A stretch of 64,000 bases of DNA, taken from contig NZ_OPYI01000007.1 in the NCBI RefSeq assembly GCF_900343085.1, forward strand, positions 1 through 64,000, read 5' to 3'. This document shows, piece by piece, positions 6,915 through 16,103 of the stretch (position 1 is the stretch's first letter; each line of letters begins with the position of its first letter). A model generated the notes under the pieces. It searched no databases. It saw nothing but the letters and a program-made list of their open reading frames with translations, and was not told where the DNA came from. A program made the position numbers and the translations under genes. This DNA is from Aedoeadaptatus coli (GTDB lineage: Bacteria; Bacillota; Clostridia; Tissierellales; Peptoniphilaceae).

Positions 6915-9074
6915 TTAACCGCTTACCCGATAAGCTTCATAGACATTTTCCACGCGCTCTAATTTTTTCAACAATCGTTCCAATTCGTCGATGTGATGAA
7001 TGCGAACCACCGTGCGAATAATCAAATTGTGGTCCTTGTCCTCTCTGGCGGAGAGGTTTTGAATGTCCAGTCGGGCGTCGTGAATTCGATTGGCGATGTC
7101 GGCCAAGACATTGTTCTTGCTTGCGGCGCGGATTTCAATTTCCGCACTGTACATTTCCTTTTCGTCGATTTCCCAACGCACGGGAATGAGGCGATCTTCG
7201 TTCATATTGTTTTTCAGATTAATGCAGTCGGAACGGTGAATGCTCACGCCGCGGCCCATGGTAATAAATCCCACAATCTCATCCCCCGGAACCGGCGTAC
7301 AGCATTTAGCGATGCGCACCTTCACATTGTCGATGCCCTTCACCACGATACCCCCGGCGTTTCGGTGGTTCTTCGACTCTTCATGCACGGCAATGTCTTC
7401 CACGGTCATGTTTTCCGCCATGGCTTTGCGTTTTTCTTCCTTGGCGTATTCCTCAAGCTTCGCCGTCACTTGGCGCACGCTCATGCTTCCGTAGCCGACT
7501 TGGGAATAGAGGTCGTTTAAATTGTCGAACTTCAGCCGTTGGCGCACGTCCTCCATCCAATCGTCGCGAACAAATTCCGACGGCCGGTAGCCCAGGCGCT
7601 TGGCCTCCTGCTCGATCATGGCCCGGCCCTTTTCGATGTTTTTGTCCCGGTCCTTGACTTTGAAATACTGTTTTATTTTCGTGCGGGCCTGGGGACTGGC
7701 GACGATGGAAAGCCAATCCAAAGACGGCTCGGAATTTTTATTGGTAATGACTTCGACGATTTCGCCGTTTTTTAATTTGTGGCTCAAAGAAACGATGCGG
7801 CCGTTGATTTTCGCGCCGACACAGGTGTTCCCAACAGCCGTGTGTACCCGATAGGCAAAGTCGATAGGTGTGGAATTATCGGGCAGGTTAATGACGTCGC
7901 CGTTCGGTGTGAAGACGAATACCTCATCGGCAAAAAAGTCCACCTTCAGCGTTTCCATAAACTCGTTCGGGTCTTTTAAATCCTTTTGCCATTCCAGCAG
8001 CTGTCTGAGCCAGGTCAGGTTTTCGTCGAAGGATGTGGATTTCTTCGCCCCTTCTTTGTACTTCCAGTGGGCGGCGATCCCGTATTCCGCCGTCTTGTGC
8101 ATTTCCCAGGTACGAATTTGCACTTCGAAGGTTTCGCCGTTGTCGTCGATAACCGTCGTGTGTAACGATTGGTACTTGTTCTGCTTCGGCATGGAGATGT
8201 AATCCTTGAACCGGCCTGGAATGGGCTTGTACATCGTGTGTACCACGCCCAAGGCCCCGTAGCAATCCTTGACGTCGTCGACGAGGATGCGGATGGCCTG
8301 CAGATCGTAGATCTCTTCGAAGGTCTTTCCCTTCTTCATCATCTTTTTATAGATGCTGTAAAAATTTTTCGGTCGACCGTTAATGTCCGCGGCGATGCCC
8401 ATGCGCTTCAACTGCTTGGAAATATCGTCGATTAAGGATTGAATCAAAGCTTCCCGCTCGCTCCTGCGGCGGTTCACCATATCCACTAGATTGTAATAAT
8501 TTTCGGGATCCAGGTAGCGCAGTGACAAGTCTTCCAATTCGCTTTTGACGCGGCTCATCCCCAAACGATCCGCCAGGGGCGCATAGATTTCGATGGTCTC
8601 CAGCGCCTTGTCGTGCTTTTTCTCCGGCGTCATGTATTCCAAGGTGCGCATATTGTGCAGGCGGTCGGCGAATTTTACGATGACCACGCGAATGTCTTTC
8701 GCCATGGCCAGGACCATCTTGCGAATATTTTCCGCCTGCTTTTCCTGTTTGGTCTGGTAAGAAAGCATTTTTAATTTCGTCACGCCTTCGACCAAAATGG
8801 CGACTTCTTCGCCGAACCGCTCCTTTACATCCTCGTAGGTGACCTCCGTATCCTCGATCGTATCGTGCAAAAGGCCCGCGATGATCGTGGGAACGTCCAT
8901 GTTCATTTCAGCTAAAATGAGCGCAACATTGAAGGGGTGAACGATGTAATCCTCCCCTGAATTGCGCTTTTGGCCTTCGTGATGTTTTTCGGCATAGTCG
9001 TAGGCTTCGCGAACTTTATCTACATCGGCCTCAGGGTTGTAAGACAAGATTTTTTCAATCAATTGTTCAATCAT
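6915..9074 (-). CDS. relA: Bifunctional (p)ppGpp synthetase/hydrolase (Rel)
   Basis: A 719-residue long Rel/SpoT homologue, the stringent-response enzyme of Gram-positives. The N-terminal HD hydrolase domain is intact (HDTIED at 70-75, ADRLHNMRT further on), so hydrolysis of ppGpp is expected. The synthetase domain follows (GRPKNFYSIYKKM, then AIRILV and KPIPGRFKDYI), then a TGS domain (VFTPNGDVINLP region), the conserved-cysteine region (AKCCTPVPGD) and a C-terminal ACT domain in the last 75 residues. It starts 4 bases after recJ, as in many Firmicutes. Both catalytic domains look functional. The symbol rel or rsh is equally used. Confidence 0.97.
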   Translation of the reverse strand: MIEQLIEKILSYNPEADVDKVREAYDYAEKHHEGQKRNSGEDYIVHPFNVALILAEMNMDVPTIIAGLLHDTIEDTEVTYEDVKERFGEEVAILVEGVTKLKMLSYQTKQEKQAENIRKMVLAMAKDIRVVIVKFADRLHNMRTLEYMTPEKKHDKALETIEIYAPLADRLGMSRVKSELEDLSLRYLDPENYYNLVDMVNRRRSEREALIQSLIDDISKQLKRMGIAADINGRPKNFYSIYKKMMKKGKTFEEIYDLQAIRILVDDVKDCYGALGVVHTMYKPIPGRFKDYISMPKQNKYQSLHTTVIDDNGETFEVQIRTWEMHKTAEYGIAAHWKYKEGAKKSTSFDENLTWLRQLLEWQKDLKDPNEFMETLKVDFFADEVFVFTPNGDVINLPDNSTPIDFAYRVHTAVGNTCVGAKINGRIVSLSHKLKNGEIVEVITNKNSEPSLDWLSIVASPQARTKIKQYFKVKDRDKNIEKGRAMIEQEAKRLGYRPSEFVRDDWMEDVRQRLKFDNLNDLYSQVGYGSMSVRQVTAKLEEYAKEEKRKAMAENMTVEDIAVHEESKNHRNAGGIVVKGIDNVKVRIAKCCTPVPGDEIVGFITMGRGVSIHRSDCINLKNNMNEDRLIPVRWEIDEKEMYSAEIEIRAASKNNVLADIANRIHDARLDIQNLSAREDKDHNLIIRTVVRIHHIDELERLLKKLERVENVYEAYRVSG

Positions 9075-9078
9075 ATAA

Positions 9079-10794
9079 TCACCGTTTAGATCGTCTTAAG
9101 TCTTCGATTTGAAATTGAAGCGTATTTCTGTTATTAAATGTGTCGATGGCGGGCACATAGGCCATGTCGATGCACAGGCTGCCGTCCGGTGCCTTCGCCT
9201 CATTGGCAAAGGCCAGAAAATCCTCCGCCGGCATAAAGAGAATGCCGTCGTAGCGCGCCTGATTGTAGAACAGCTCCAATTTAATTACATTCCTATTCTT
9301 ACCTAAAATTCGGTATTGTGAAACATAGACCCCGGTTGCGCCGAAAAGCGGTTTGGGATTTCCGTTTCCGAAAGGCTTCAGGCGATTCAATCGCTCCACA
9401 GTTTCAGCACTCACCTTGTCGAGCTGCATAATCGTATCCAGACGCACACGAGGCACCAAATCTCTGGGATCCAAATCGCTTTTTTCGATGGCATCGAGCT
9501 TAAAGGCGATAAACTGATCTTTTCTCAAGCTTAAGCCGCAGGCCATGGCGTGGCCGCCGAAGGAGGTAAGGTATTTTTCGCTCTTTCGGATCTGCTCCAC
9601 CATATTATAAGCGTCGATGCTTCTACCCGATCCCTTCAGGCCGTCTTTGCCCGAGGTAAGCACGATGCAGGGGCGATGGTATTTTCCCTTAATGCGCCCG
9701 GCGATAATGCCGGCGATGGACTCGTCGATGGTTTCATCTTTTAAAATGTAAATGGGCTGCACCCTTTCCTTGGGACTGGTCAATTGTTTTTCCAAACGAG
9801 CCAGGCCTTCGGTGGTTAAATCTTGGCGCTTTTTGTTTAGCTCGCGCAAATAAGAGGCGGTCTCTTCAGCAAAGGCTTCGTCTTCCGTTAAAAACAATTC
9901 CACCCCGTCGGCGGCCGTATCCAAGCGCCCTGCCGCATTGATGGTGGGGCCGATGATGAAACCTAAATGGTAGGCGCCGATTTCCCCCTTGATCTTCGCC
10001 GCTTCCCTTAAGGCGTTAAAGCCTATGTTATCCGTTTGATTTAATCGGGCGAGGCCGCAAGTGACCAGATCTCTGTTTTCGCCCATTAGCTCCATGACAT
10101 CGCACACCGTGGCCAGGGCGGCAAAACCGATCAGGTCTTCATCCATGGTCTCGATTTTTCCCGAAATCGTATAGAGATAGTTAATAAAATAATAGGCCAA
10201 GGCGCCGCCGCACAAGCCTTTGAAAGGATAGCTACAATCTTCCTGATGGGGATTGATTATGGCGTCGGCTTCCGGCAAGACTTCCTCGCCTTCCCGCCAC
10301 ACCACTTGATGGTGGTCGATGACGATGACCTTCAGGCCAAGGGCCTTCGCTTTTTCAATGGCTTCAAACTGCGCAATGCCGTTGTCGCAGGTGATGATCA
10401 TCTCCACGCCGTCGGTCAGGGCTTCATCGGCCATAAAGGGCTTCATTCCGTAGCCGTCTTCCCGGCGATGGGGCAGGCGGTAGTCCACATCGTAGCCGAG
10501 ACCGCCCAGGCCTTTCATAAGAATCGTCGTGCTCATGACGCCGTCACAGTCGTAATCGCCGATGATGCGGATTTTTCCCTTGACGCTTTGAACGAGATTG
10601 CCCGCTTTCACCATGTCTTTTAATGCGATGGGCGAATGGATGTGATCCATCGAAGGGTGCAAGTAGTTTTGAATCTTTTCTTTCGTGTCCACGCCGCGAT
10701 TCACCAGAATGCGAAACTCCCATTCCTGCAGGCCCAATGCGCGAAAGTCGATGGATTCTTTCGGTTGTTCGTTTTTAATAGACCAGTATTTCAT
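9079..10794 (-). CDS. recJ: Single-stranded-DNA-specific exonuclease RecJ
   Basis: A 571-residue DHH-family exonuclease, close to the E. coli length and shorter than the long Bacillus form. Motif I DYDCDGV is at residues 80-86 and the DHH motif at 160-162 (VIDHHQV); a DHHA1 domain with the GGHAMACG motif lies around residue 410-420, and an OB-fold follows. It degrades single-stranded DNA 5' to 3' in recombination and mismatch repair. It overlaps scfB by 4 bases and precedes relA, so it is inside the long run. Motifs are complete and nothing suggests loss of function. Confidence 0.96.
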   Translation of the reverse strand: MKYWSIKNEQPKESIDFRALGLQEWEFRILVNRGVDTKEKIQNYLHPSMDHIHSPIALKDMVKAGNLVQSVKGKIRIIGDYDCDGVMSTTILMKGLGGLGYDVDYRLPHRREDGYGMKPFMADEALTDGVEMIITCDNGIAQFEAIEKAKALGLKVIVIDHHQVVWREGEEVLPEADAIINPHQEDCSYPFKGLCGGALAYYFINYLYTISGKIETMDEDLIGFAALATVCDVMELMGENRDLVTCGLARLNQTDNIGFNALREAAKIKGEIGAYHLGFIIGPTINAAGRLDTAADGVELFLTEDEAFAEETASYLRELNKKRQDLTTEGLARLEKQLTSPKERVQPIYILKDETIDESIAGIIAGRIKGKYHRPCIVLTSGKDGLKGSGRSIDAYNMVEQIRKSEKYLTSFGGHAMACGLSLRKDQFIAFKLDAIEKSDLDPRDLVPRVRLDTIMQLDKVSAETVERLNRLKPFGNGNPKPLFGATGVYVSQYRILGKNRNVIKLELFYNQARYDGILFMPAEDFLAFANEAKAPDGSLCIDMAYVPAIDTFNNRNTLQFQIEDLRRSKR

Positions 10795-12149
10795 TCTTCA
10801 CTCTGCTCATTGGCATAGACACTGAGGGCGCATTCCAGGCGCTTGCGCTCCATTTGGCAACCGATGTCGAAGGGCTCGTAAATGTCGCCGTTGTTGTGGT
10901 AAGCGTTGGCGTGGCAACCGCCGCTGCAAAAATACTTGGCCCAGCAATCGGTGCAGGCCTCTTTATGAAAGACGTCGGCCTTGTGGAAATGATTCTGTAG
11001 CTCTTTATTGACGATGCCTTCGTCTACATTTCCCAGGAGGAAATCTTCCTCGCCGACAAATTGATGGCAGGGATAAATATCCCCTGTCGGCGTTACGGCC
11101 ACGTATTCGCTTCCCGCGCCGCAGCCGATGCTCTTTTTGTAGGCGCAGGGGCCGCCGGAAAGATCGATCATGTAGTGGAAAAAGAGGAAATCGGGATCCT
11201 CTTTTCGAATGCGCAAATAGTCTTCGCTGAGTTTTTCGTACTCTTTCAGGATTTGATCCAGATGCTCTTCGCGAATGGCGTATTCTTCGTTGGGATCGGT
11301 GACCACAGGCTCCATGGAGGTCTTTTCAAAGCCCAAATCGTGGAACAACATGACGTCTTTCGAAAAGTCTAAATTGTGATTGGTAAAAGTGCCGCGAATG
11401 TAGTAATCCTTATCTCCCCGCGAGGCGATTAATTTTTGAAAATTCGGGACGATGGTGTCGTAGCTGCCTTTTTTATTGACCGTGGGACGCATGGCGTCGT
11501 TGATTTCCTTGCGGCCGTCGATGGACAGGACCACATTGGCCATTTCCCGGTTTAAATACTCAATATTTTCATCGTTCAGCAAAAGGCCGTTGGTCGTCAT
11601 GGTGAAGCGGAAATTCTTTCCGTAGGCTTTCTCCCGTTCTCTGCCGTAGCTGACCAGCTCTTTTACCACATCGAAATTCATCATGGGTTCGCCGCCGAAA
11701 AAGTCGACTTCTAAATTGCGGCGGTTTCCGGAGTTTTCCAAAAGAAAATCCAAGGCTTTTTTCCCGGTCTCGAGATCCATGACCATGCGCTCGCCGTGGA
11801 AATCCCCCTGAGAGGCGAAACAGTAGGCGCAGCGCAAATTACAGTCGTGGGAGACGTGAAGGCACATGGCTTTAATGTGGCAATCCGGATTAAAGCCGCT
11901 TAAATCCACCGGCGTGTCCTCAGAATAGAGCAGGCCCTCTTCAATAAGGTAATCCAGCTCATCGTAGCCCTGTGCCACCTCACGGGGATCGTAGCGACCT
12001 GTGTATTTTTCCACCATGGCCTCTTTCGACAAATCCAACATGTCTGCGGCCATGTCGAAAATCATGGGATCCACCACGTGCACCGCGCCCGATGCCACGT
12101 CCAGTAATATATGCTTGCCATTTCCTTGAAAACGATGAATTTTACGCAC
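10791..12149 (-). CDS. scfB: SCIFF peptide radical SAM maturase (thioether forming)
   Basis: A 452-residue radical SAM/SPASM enzyme that installs thioether cross-links in the SCIFF precursor. The N-terminal 95 residues form the RRE-like peptide-binding part; the radical SAM cluster motif is C103-x3-C107-x2-C110; the FFGGEPMMNF segment follows. The C-terminal SPASM/twitch region carries the cysteine series from CAYKKSIGCGAG through CHQF, CTDCWAKYFCSGGC to GCQM, which binds the two auxiliary clusters. The start is GTG with an AAGGGG site upstream. The substrate gene scfA lies 44 bases upstream, with a terminator-like hairpin between. It overlaps recJ by 4 bases. Assignment is firm because enzyme and cognate peptide are adjacent. 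Confidence 0.95.
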   Translation of the reverse strand: MRKIHRFQGNGKHILLDVASGAVHVVDPMIFDMAADMLDLSKEAMVEKYTGRYDPREVAQGYDELDYLIEEGLLYSEDTPVDLSGFNPDCHIKAMCLHVSHDCNLRCAYCFASQGDFHGERMVMDLETGKKALDFLLENSGNRRNLEVDFFGGEPMMNFDVVKELVSYGREREKAYGKNFRFTMTTNGLLLNDENIEYLNREMANVVLSIDGRKEINDAMRPTVNKKGSYDTIVPNFQKLIASRGDKDYYIRGTFTNHNLDFSKDVMLFHDLGFEKTSMEPVVTDPNEEYAIREEHLDQILKEYEKLSEDYLRIRKEDPDFLFFHYMIDLSGGPCAYKKSIGCGAGSEYVAVTPTGDIYPCHQFVGEEDFLLGNVDEGIVNKELQNHFHKADVFHKEACTDCWAKYFCSGGCHANAYHNNGDIYEPFDIGCQMERKRLECALSVYANEQSEE

Positions 12150-12163
12150 AAATTTCCCCTTCT

Positions 12164-12193
12164 AAAAGAAAAAGGTGTGGGAATCCCACAACC
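12164..12193 (-). terminator. Terminator-like hairpin between scfA and scfB
   Basis: On the minus strand, right after the scfA stop, GGTTGTGGG pairs with CCCACACC (8 bp with one bulged T, 3-base loop), followed by TTTTTCTTTT. The following gene's ribosome site begins only a few bases later. It probably lets most transcripts stop after scfA, giving more peptide than maturase. Confidence 0.7.
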
Positions 12194-12340
12194 TTATCTA
12201 TCCTTATTTTCGCACTTTTGATTGCCGACGGTACAAGAGGTCTTGCAGGCCGATTGGCAAGAGGTTTGACATTCGCCGCAGCCGGCTTTTTCTAAACCTT
12301 TACGCAGTGAACGTTTCGTCAGTGTTTTTATGTATTTCAT
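12194..12340 (-). CDS. scfA: SCIFF ranthipeptide precursor (six cysteines in forty-five)
   Basis: A 48-codon gene, below the usual size limit for gene calling, with ATG at 12340-12338, an AGGAG site upstream and TAA at 12196-12194. The product has a lysine-rich leader (MKYIKTLTKRSLRKGL) and a core with six cysteines at residues 21, 24, 28, 32, 36 and 43, spelling CGECQTSCQSACKTSC then KCE. This is the SCIFF family signature, almost universal in Clostridia. ScfB links core cysteines to other residues by thioether bonds. The sequence ends with a short basic/acidic tail ENKDR after the last cysteine, slightly longer than I recall as typical. The biological role of SCIFF is not settled; quorum sensing or redox roles have been proposed for ranthipeptides. 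Recognition is firm. Confidence 0.95.
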   Translation of the reverse strand: MKYIKTLTKRSLRKGLEKAGCGECQTSCQSACKTSCTVGNQKCENKDR

Positions 12341-12349
12341 AAAATGCTC

Positions 12350-12703
12350 CTATTCTTCCTCTTCGTCTTCTTCTTTTTCAGCTTTCCGTCCCGACGGTTT
12401 CAAGACATTCTTAACCGCCCATTTCATAATTTCCAGGCGCGTCTTCATGCCCGTGGATTCGATGACGATCACATCGGCCTTCACCTGCACGATCTTTCCG
12501 ACGATGCCGCCATAGGTATAGATAACGTCGCCGACGGCCAGATTCTCCATCATTTCCGCCGCTTCTTTTTCCTTCTTTTTATTCGGACGAATAATACCGA
12601 AGTAAAAGATGGCGATCATTAAAACGACAGAGATAAGTGTAGGGACCATTGAATTTCCCCCACCGATCGCTCCCAGCGGGAAAAGACCATCTCCAAATTC
12701 CAT
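12350..12703 (-). CDS. yajC: Preprotein translocase subunit YajC
   Basis: A 117-residue protein with one N-terminal membrane segment (about residues 19-38), the conserved FGIIRPNKKKEKE stretch just after it, and the small cytoplasmic domain (GDVIYTYGGIVGKI), ending in a glutamate-rich tail. YajC is an accessory of SecDF-SecYEG. It follows tgt by 13 bases; the queA-tgt-yajC order is conserved in many bacteria. secD and secF, which often follow, are not here; instead scfA comes next, which is the common clostridial arrangement for SCIFF genes. Confidence 0.94.
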   Translation of the reverse strand: MEFGDGLFPLGAIGGGNSMVPTLISVVLMIAIFYFGIIRPNKKKEKEAAEMMENLAVGDVIYTYGGIVGKIVQVKADVIVIESTGMKTRLEIMKWAVKNVLKPSGRKAEKEEDEEEE

Positions 12704-12716
12704 ACATACCTCCTAT

Positions 12717-14863
<2,147 letters not shown>

Positions 14864-14873
14864 GCTGTCCTTT

Positions 14874-16103
14874 CTATCGTAATTCCGTGCCGGGATAGTA
14901 AAAGCTCAAAATCGCTCTGTAATCCTTGCCGGCCTTGGCCATTTCAATGGCGCCGTATTGGCTGAGGCCCACGCCGTGGCCGTAGCCTGTGCCCTTTAAT
15001 GTAATCGAGCCTCGAATGGGCATGACATCGTTATACGTCGCCGTTTGTGCACTTGCGCTCTCCAAGCCATTGGCGCGGATCACCGAATCGGCGTTACCTG
15101 TGCGGATGCCTGCGGCGGAAATAATTCGGACCTTTGCATAGGGCCTGATTCCCGTCGAGGTGATCACCGTCAACGGTTTTTCAACCCCGCGGGACCTCGC
15201 TTCCGTGCCAAAGTTTGCGCTCTTTACCTTAATGGGGCCTAATTTCATGCGGAATTGATTGCCCGTCACGACTTCTCGTCCCGAGGTACCCACCACGGCC
15301 ATGGATTTAATGCGCCCTGTGGAGGAGCGCTCCGAGACTTCCAAAGAAGTAGGTTCTCCCACAGAGGGAAAGGCCCGGCGAATGTCGGCGGATGAGAGCG
15401 TCGCCTCCCAAGTGGCGTGGCGCGTATTCAGGGAATAAGGATCTTTTATAGCCTTTAAGTAAGGAGAGGGATTGCCGCCCCATACTTCTTCGATGGCTTC
15501 CGTTTCGCCGCCGCTGGTGGCGTGAAAAATCGTATTGGCCACTTCGCCTTGGTAGTAAAGAATTTGGTCCTTGGTCTCCGCCACGGCCCGGTCGGTCATG
15601 GGCGACTCGACGCTCATGCCTGCGTAAGCTTGGGAGGCGCTGGAATCGTCTAAATTATAGCCGTACTTGGCAAATTTGTTCCAGTTGGCGTAGGCAAAGC
15701 TTCTGGAGACTACGGCCTGAACCTTTAATGCTTCGATGGGCGTGGTGGTGCCGATTTCTTTCGGCAAGACGCCGCGAATGTAGTCGTCTACATCGACGAT
15801 GTTCACCGATTTCAACTGACCGCCCGACTTCACAAAGCGCACACTTCCCCGGTAGGGCTTCCCGCCGATTGAAATGTAGCCGGCGGTGGAAGAAAATACA
15901 TCGGTCTCCGATACATTGGATGCCGTGGCATTAAAGCTGCTTCCCACGGGGCTGCCGTTTTTCATTAAACCGCCGTCGGTAGAAAGAGTGATGGAAGAGG
16001 AAGTGGGGCCTACTTTAACGTGAATGGGCTCCGATTGCGCGAACACCGGCGCGCCCATTACGAGTACGGCGACAAAGGCCAGTAAACTAAGTAATTTTCT
16101 CAT
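14874..16103 (-). CDS. SpoIID/LytB-domain secreted protein
   Basis: A 409-residue exported protein with a cleavable signal peptide (about residues 1-22, ending in AQS). The rest carries a SpoIID/LytB domain: [13 protein letters not shown] contains the glutamate that is catalytic in SpoIID lytic transglycosylase, then [16 protein letters not shown], the [16 protein letters not shown] block and the C-terminal [13 protein letters not shown] motif. In spore formers SpoIID digests septal peptidoglycan during engulfment; related proteins in non-spore-formers remodel peptidoglycan. Its place between ruvB (4-base overlap) and queA is known in clostridia. Enzyme class is likely; a role in sporulation cannot be inferred here. 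Confidence 0.88.

Follow-up and report, generated by a model that had tools for sequence, protein, structure and literature searches.

The SCIFF locus, in which a gene for a small precursor peptide (scfA) is followed directly by the gene for its radical SAM maturase (scfB), raises the question of how two adjacent genes can supply far more substrate than enzyme. An excess of peptide would suit such a locus because the maturase is catalytic, while the substrate is used one molecule per product. The pair was described in 2011 and has been studied biochemically as a ranthipeptide system (PMC8326336, PMC5300114). We analysed it in a 64,000-nt stretch of DNA (hereafter "the window") and in related genomes, and we consider it probable (about 0.75) that a partial intrinsic (Rho-independent) terminator at the 3′ end of scfA keeps the precursor in excess over the maturase. 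The predicted terminator itself is well supported by its conservation, strand specificity and independence of context; the partial read-through and the peptide-to-enzyme ratio at the protein level we infer.

The locus and its spacer

All genes of the locus lie on the minus strand in the order tgt, yajC, scfA, scfB, recJ, relA/spoT. The features relevant to the argument are the following:

12729..12757, minus strand: candidate promoter ATGACT-17-TATAAT for yajC-scfA, in the last codons of tgt (consensus scan)
12350..12703, minus strand: yajC, the upstream neighbour, 9 nt before scfA (TIGR00739, 76 bits)
12194..12340, minus strand: scfA, SCIFF precursor peptide, 48 aa, six Cys (TIGR03973, PF13165)
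12172..12195, minus strand: predicted intrinsic-terminator hairpin AAGGTTGTGGGATTCCCACACCTT, fold of -11.8 kcal/mol, structure conserved in relatives
12164..12173, minus strand: T-run TTTTTCTTTT, the terminator tail, whose first two T are shared with the closing pairs of the stem (sequence)
12156..12163, minus strand: scfB ribosome-binding site AGAAGGGG, 6 nt before GTG (sequence)
10791..12149, minus strand: scfB, radical SAM/SPASM SCIFF maturase, GTG start, 452 aa (TIGR03974, PF04055, PF13186)
9079..10794, minus strand: recJ, overlapping the scfB end by 4 nt, downstream of the terminator (TIGR00644, 453.8 bits)

The peptide scores 81.7 bits against TIGR03973 (cut-off 50) and 84.5 bits against PF13165; its six Cys occupy positions 21, 24, 28, 32, 36 and 43, and the donor Cys32 and acceptor Thr34 are both present in its sequence. 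The maturase scores 684.9 bits against TIGR03974 (cut-off 425) and matches the radical SAM (PF04055) and SPASM (PF13186) domains, and with the exception model NF040492 it remains below that model's own cut-off. Peptide and enzyme are thus a plain SCIFF pair with no protein-level difference from the known system. The first-pass annotation of this DNA had described a 48-codon gene for a six-cysteine SCIFF peptide, a radical SAM maturase 44 bases further on, and a position between yajC and recJ; its coordinates, length, families and neighbours are all borne out, the spacer being exactly 44 nt (12193..12150), and it was silent only on the minus strand. The genes yajC and scfA are probably on one transcript. 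As a side observation, yajC is retained but secD gave no match in any of the eight genomes of the genus (G000-G007) or in G070, which belongs to the same family; other families of the order have secD.

The spacer hairpin has the arms AAGGTTGTGGG-ATT-CCCACACCTT, that is, 10 pairs with one bulged T and a 3-nt loop, and the base of its stem reaches into the scfA stop codon, whose final two bases it includes. The T-run (9 T of 10) is near-constant across the genus and ends at 12164, immediately before the ribosome-binding site of scfB that begins at 12163, as had been noted at first reading. A stable, GC-containing hairpin with a T-run directly after it on the sense strand represents the pattern of an intrinsic terminator. 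A search of positions 9000-16000 against Rfam returned no known RNA family. In the predicted fold of the spacer, the U-tract is base-paired to the ribosome site of scfB (12156-12173); this may be without meaning, as a stretch of U readily pairs with a purine-rich site nearby.

Taken alone, the window offers evidence at chance level: terminator-like sites are hardly more numerous in the 7-kb region (12) than in its shuffles (10.2), and the fold of the whole spacer compared with its own shuffles gives z = -1.44. This is why a comparative test was required.

Conservation of the predicted terminator among Clostridia

SCIFF genes are widespread: 117 of the 130 genomes of the window's family carry them, as do 322 of the 391 sampled from the class. 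The comparison covered 257 loci in which scfB comes after scfA, from Peptoniphilaceae and from Clostridia class-wide. The region from the scfA stop to the scfB start was scored in spacers of at least 15 nt (n = 243), and a terminator was defined as a single hairpin of -6 kcal/mol or lower that has 5 or more pairs and precedes a tail with no fewer than 5 T in 8.

A terminator was detected in 211 of the 243 spacers, against a mean of 39.6 in shuffled sequences (ten dinucleotide shuffles each) and 70 on the reverse strand; at -10 kcal/mol the corresponding numbers were 195, 10.3 and 46. Loci inside one ScfB cluster are related, hence counts by locus are not independent; with one vote per ScfB cluster (greedy clustering at 80% identity), 139 clusters had a terminator, 19 had none and 8 had spacers shorter than 15 nt. 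The background was taken from neighbouring spacers of the sampled loci (the first 185), where terminators occurred in 8/109 spacers upstream of scfA, 9/50 other same-direction gaps and 7/13 gaps downstream of scfB. Comparison of the spacer hairpin across related genomes, which the first-pass annotation had named as a check, therefore speaks for it: the predicted terminator is clearly conserved beyond chance among relatives, in about 85% of clostridial lineages. L183 and L186 are both among the positive loci.

The stem sequence changes between genera (GGTTGTGGG/CCCACACC in the window, GCAAGG/CCTTGC in Peptoniphilus and GTGGTGG/CCACTAC in other lineages), so that the structure appears to be retained while its sequence is replaced. 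Since the MAFFT alignment of the hairpins misplaced the more distant stems, covarying pairs were left uncounted and we relied on the shuffles and control spacers.

The terminator does not depend on its neighbourhood. Upstream of scfA, yajC was detected in 92 of 253 loci, most loci having no detected yajC; a terminator was present in 84/91 spacers with yajC upstream and in 123/148 without it, and therefore it is no property of the yajC operon as such. In other genomes scfA and scfB are nearly always seen adjacent; they are far apart or on different contigs in six (G249, G295, G315, G156, G296 and G384). In the first four of these, a hairpin with a T-run stands directly 3′ of scfA although scfB is elsewhere, and in G296 and G384 no comparably clear terminator was found after scfA. 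The device is dispensable, since eight clusters (e.g., L070-72, L116 and L090) have spacers shorter than 15 nt and no terminator, the spacer of L116 and L090 being 1 nt. In the terminator-free lineages with spacers of at most 14 nt, yajC is absent upstream, with one exception.

Probable read-through into scfB and its alternatives

We propose that transcription would start upstream of yajC, pass through scfA and mostly end near 12164. The main product would be a short, abundant yajC-scfA message (some 0.56 kb from the candidate promoter), while a minority of polymerases would read through and produce an scfB-recJ message. The -10 element of the candidate promoter is unchanged in 8/8 genomes of the genus, but the site is suggestive only, because it overlaps the coding sequence of tgt. 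Together, the terminator position and this conserved promoter-like site suggest a separate yajC-scfA transcript. The first-pass view of constitutive peptide production alongside DNA repair and tRNA-modification genes is not supported: the terminator parts scfA from recJ, the candidate promoter lies at the end of tgt, and most of the sampled loci have no detected yajC before scfA.

The starts of translation show a difference in the same direction: scfA begins with ATG in 164/166 representatives and scfB in 118/166, and the mean Shine-Dalgarno match is 5.5 nt for scfA versus 4.3 nt for scfB in the same set. The terminator and the weaker scfB starts (GTG here) would in combination bring the substrate peptide far above the maturase. 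The earlier claim that the terminator gives far more peptide than enzyme is therefore well supported in its first part, the terminator (211/243), and its second part, the purpose, is plausible given the lack of promoter room in many spacers, described below, and the weaker scfB starts.

The alternative that survives best, though we consider it unlikely, is that the terminator represents the full end of the yajC-scfA unit and scfB is transcribed from its own promoter inside scfA or the spacer. The genomes with scfB located elsewhere indicate that the two genes can be transcribed apart, and good promoter-like sites follow the hairpin in some long spacers (for example L136, scoring 12/12, and L052 and L102, scoring 10). 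However, the segment between the terminator and the scfB start region is shorter than 35 nt in 112 of the 211 terminator-positive loci, which leaves no room for a promoter, and the longer segments contain 21 promoter-like sites against about 13 expected from shuffles, that is, little enrichment. In the window, no promoter-like site suited to scfB was found between yajC and the scfB start, with the reservation, valid for all these counts, that consensus scans can miss promoters. Given the lack of room in more than half of the positive spacers and the small enrichment in the others, the scfB message is most simply explained by read-through, on which scfB and, in this genus, the overlapping recJ would most likely depend.

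Another reading, rather improbable in our view, has a full-length message cleaved, with the hairpin serving chiefly to shield the 3′ end of the scfA mRNA or to mark a processing site, and not to stop transcription. About ten terminator-negative loci carry a strong hairpin beyond all 30 shuffles with no qualifying T-tail, including a 23-bp stem in L235; such hairpins fit a post-transcriptional role better and count against the terminator reading. A plain protective hairpin, however, needs no T-run on the sense strand, and the T-run follows the stem in 211/243 spacers on the sense strand against 70/243 on the opposite one. Terminator hairpins protect 3′ ends too, so the two explanations overlap.

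There is an equally slim chance that read-through is a regulated switch, responsive to a condition or to the SCIFF product, rather than a fixed setter of the ratio; a possible means would be an alternative fold in which the U-tract is bound to the ribosome site of scfB. If this were true, the maturase supply would vary, and with it, in this genus, that of the downstream recJ and relA.

Finally, that the hairpin is a chance product of ordinary operon sequence, found anywhere in these genomes, as the site count of the 7-kb region could suggest, is highly improbable and is refuted by a conservation far above both the shuffles and the neighbouring spacers of the same loci.

Peptide variants and comparison with known systems

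In the peptide of the window, Cys32, Thr34 and Thr37 stand at the positions named for CteA, whose cross-link from Cys32 has been assigned to either Thr37 or Thr34, a discrepancy called unclear (PMC8326336). Over scfA codons 34-37 (12230-12241 in the window), all 166 representatives have Thr34, but position 37 holds Thr in 132 of them and Gly in the other 34. An invariant Thr34 beside a position 37 occupied by Gly in roughly one lineage in five favours a Cys32-Thr34 cross-link over Cys32-Thr37.

In five lineages we observed a "twin SCIFF", that is, a single reading frame (about 95-115 aa) encoding the complete leader-core unit twice (L279 in G067, L281/L282 in G103 and G100, L283 in G133, L284 in G288, and L285 in G443). 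These lineages are spread over two Peptoniphilaceae genera and three other families, and all belong to the GVANQPC subtype. In one of these lineages, genus g34 (L090 and L091), the twin SCIFF has Ser for Cys32 and Cys36 in both copies, which removes the reported thioether donor; both loci have a 1-nt spacer and no terminator. The g34 maturase keeps the invariant cysteines and carries the changes H325N, G333S, A351S and G366N.

The statement of the first-pass annotation that the function is unresolved in the whole family is dated. According to Chen 2020, as cited in PMC8102284 and PMC8326336, disruption of the system in C. beijerinckii lowers sporulation genes and raises agr, and a quorum-sensing role has been proposed for it in solventogenic clostridia.

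The likeness to the SCIFF system described earlier as ScfA-ScfB (CteA-CteB, Tte1186a) consists in adjacent genes and in both proteins scoring above the family cut-offs. The terminator between the genes goes without mention in the open-access literature we found: nothing combined "SCIFF" and "terminator", nothing on terminators of RiPP maturases or lantibiotics documented this arrangement, and the main text of PMC6284299 has no passage on it. The class-wide conservation of the post-scfA terminator may thus be undescribed so far.

Although SCIFF genes are present in 322/391 genomes of the class, work on their role has only just started. A putative stop kept class-wide behind the precursor gene points to a peptide intended to exceed its enzyme, and equal expression of scfA and scfB is not to be assumed. 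The proposed arrangement predicts a short, abundant scfA RNA, which should be visible in existing clostridial RNA-seq sets.

Partial terminators after precursor genes are known from other RiPPs, namely from lantibiotics such as nisin. The likeness consists in a hairpin with a T-run after the precursor gene and a modification gene downstream that would be reached via read-through. This design is not universal, since the cluster of the lantibiotic thusin has no predicted terminator (PMC4949975). The SCIFF case is a new example of this known RiPP arrangement, and it differs from the lantibiotics in that its predicted terminator is located not in a bacteriocin cluster but at a near-universal chromosomal locus of a whole class.
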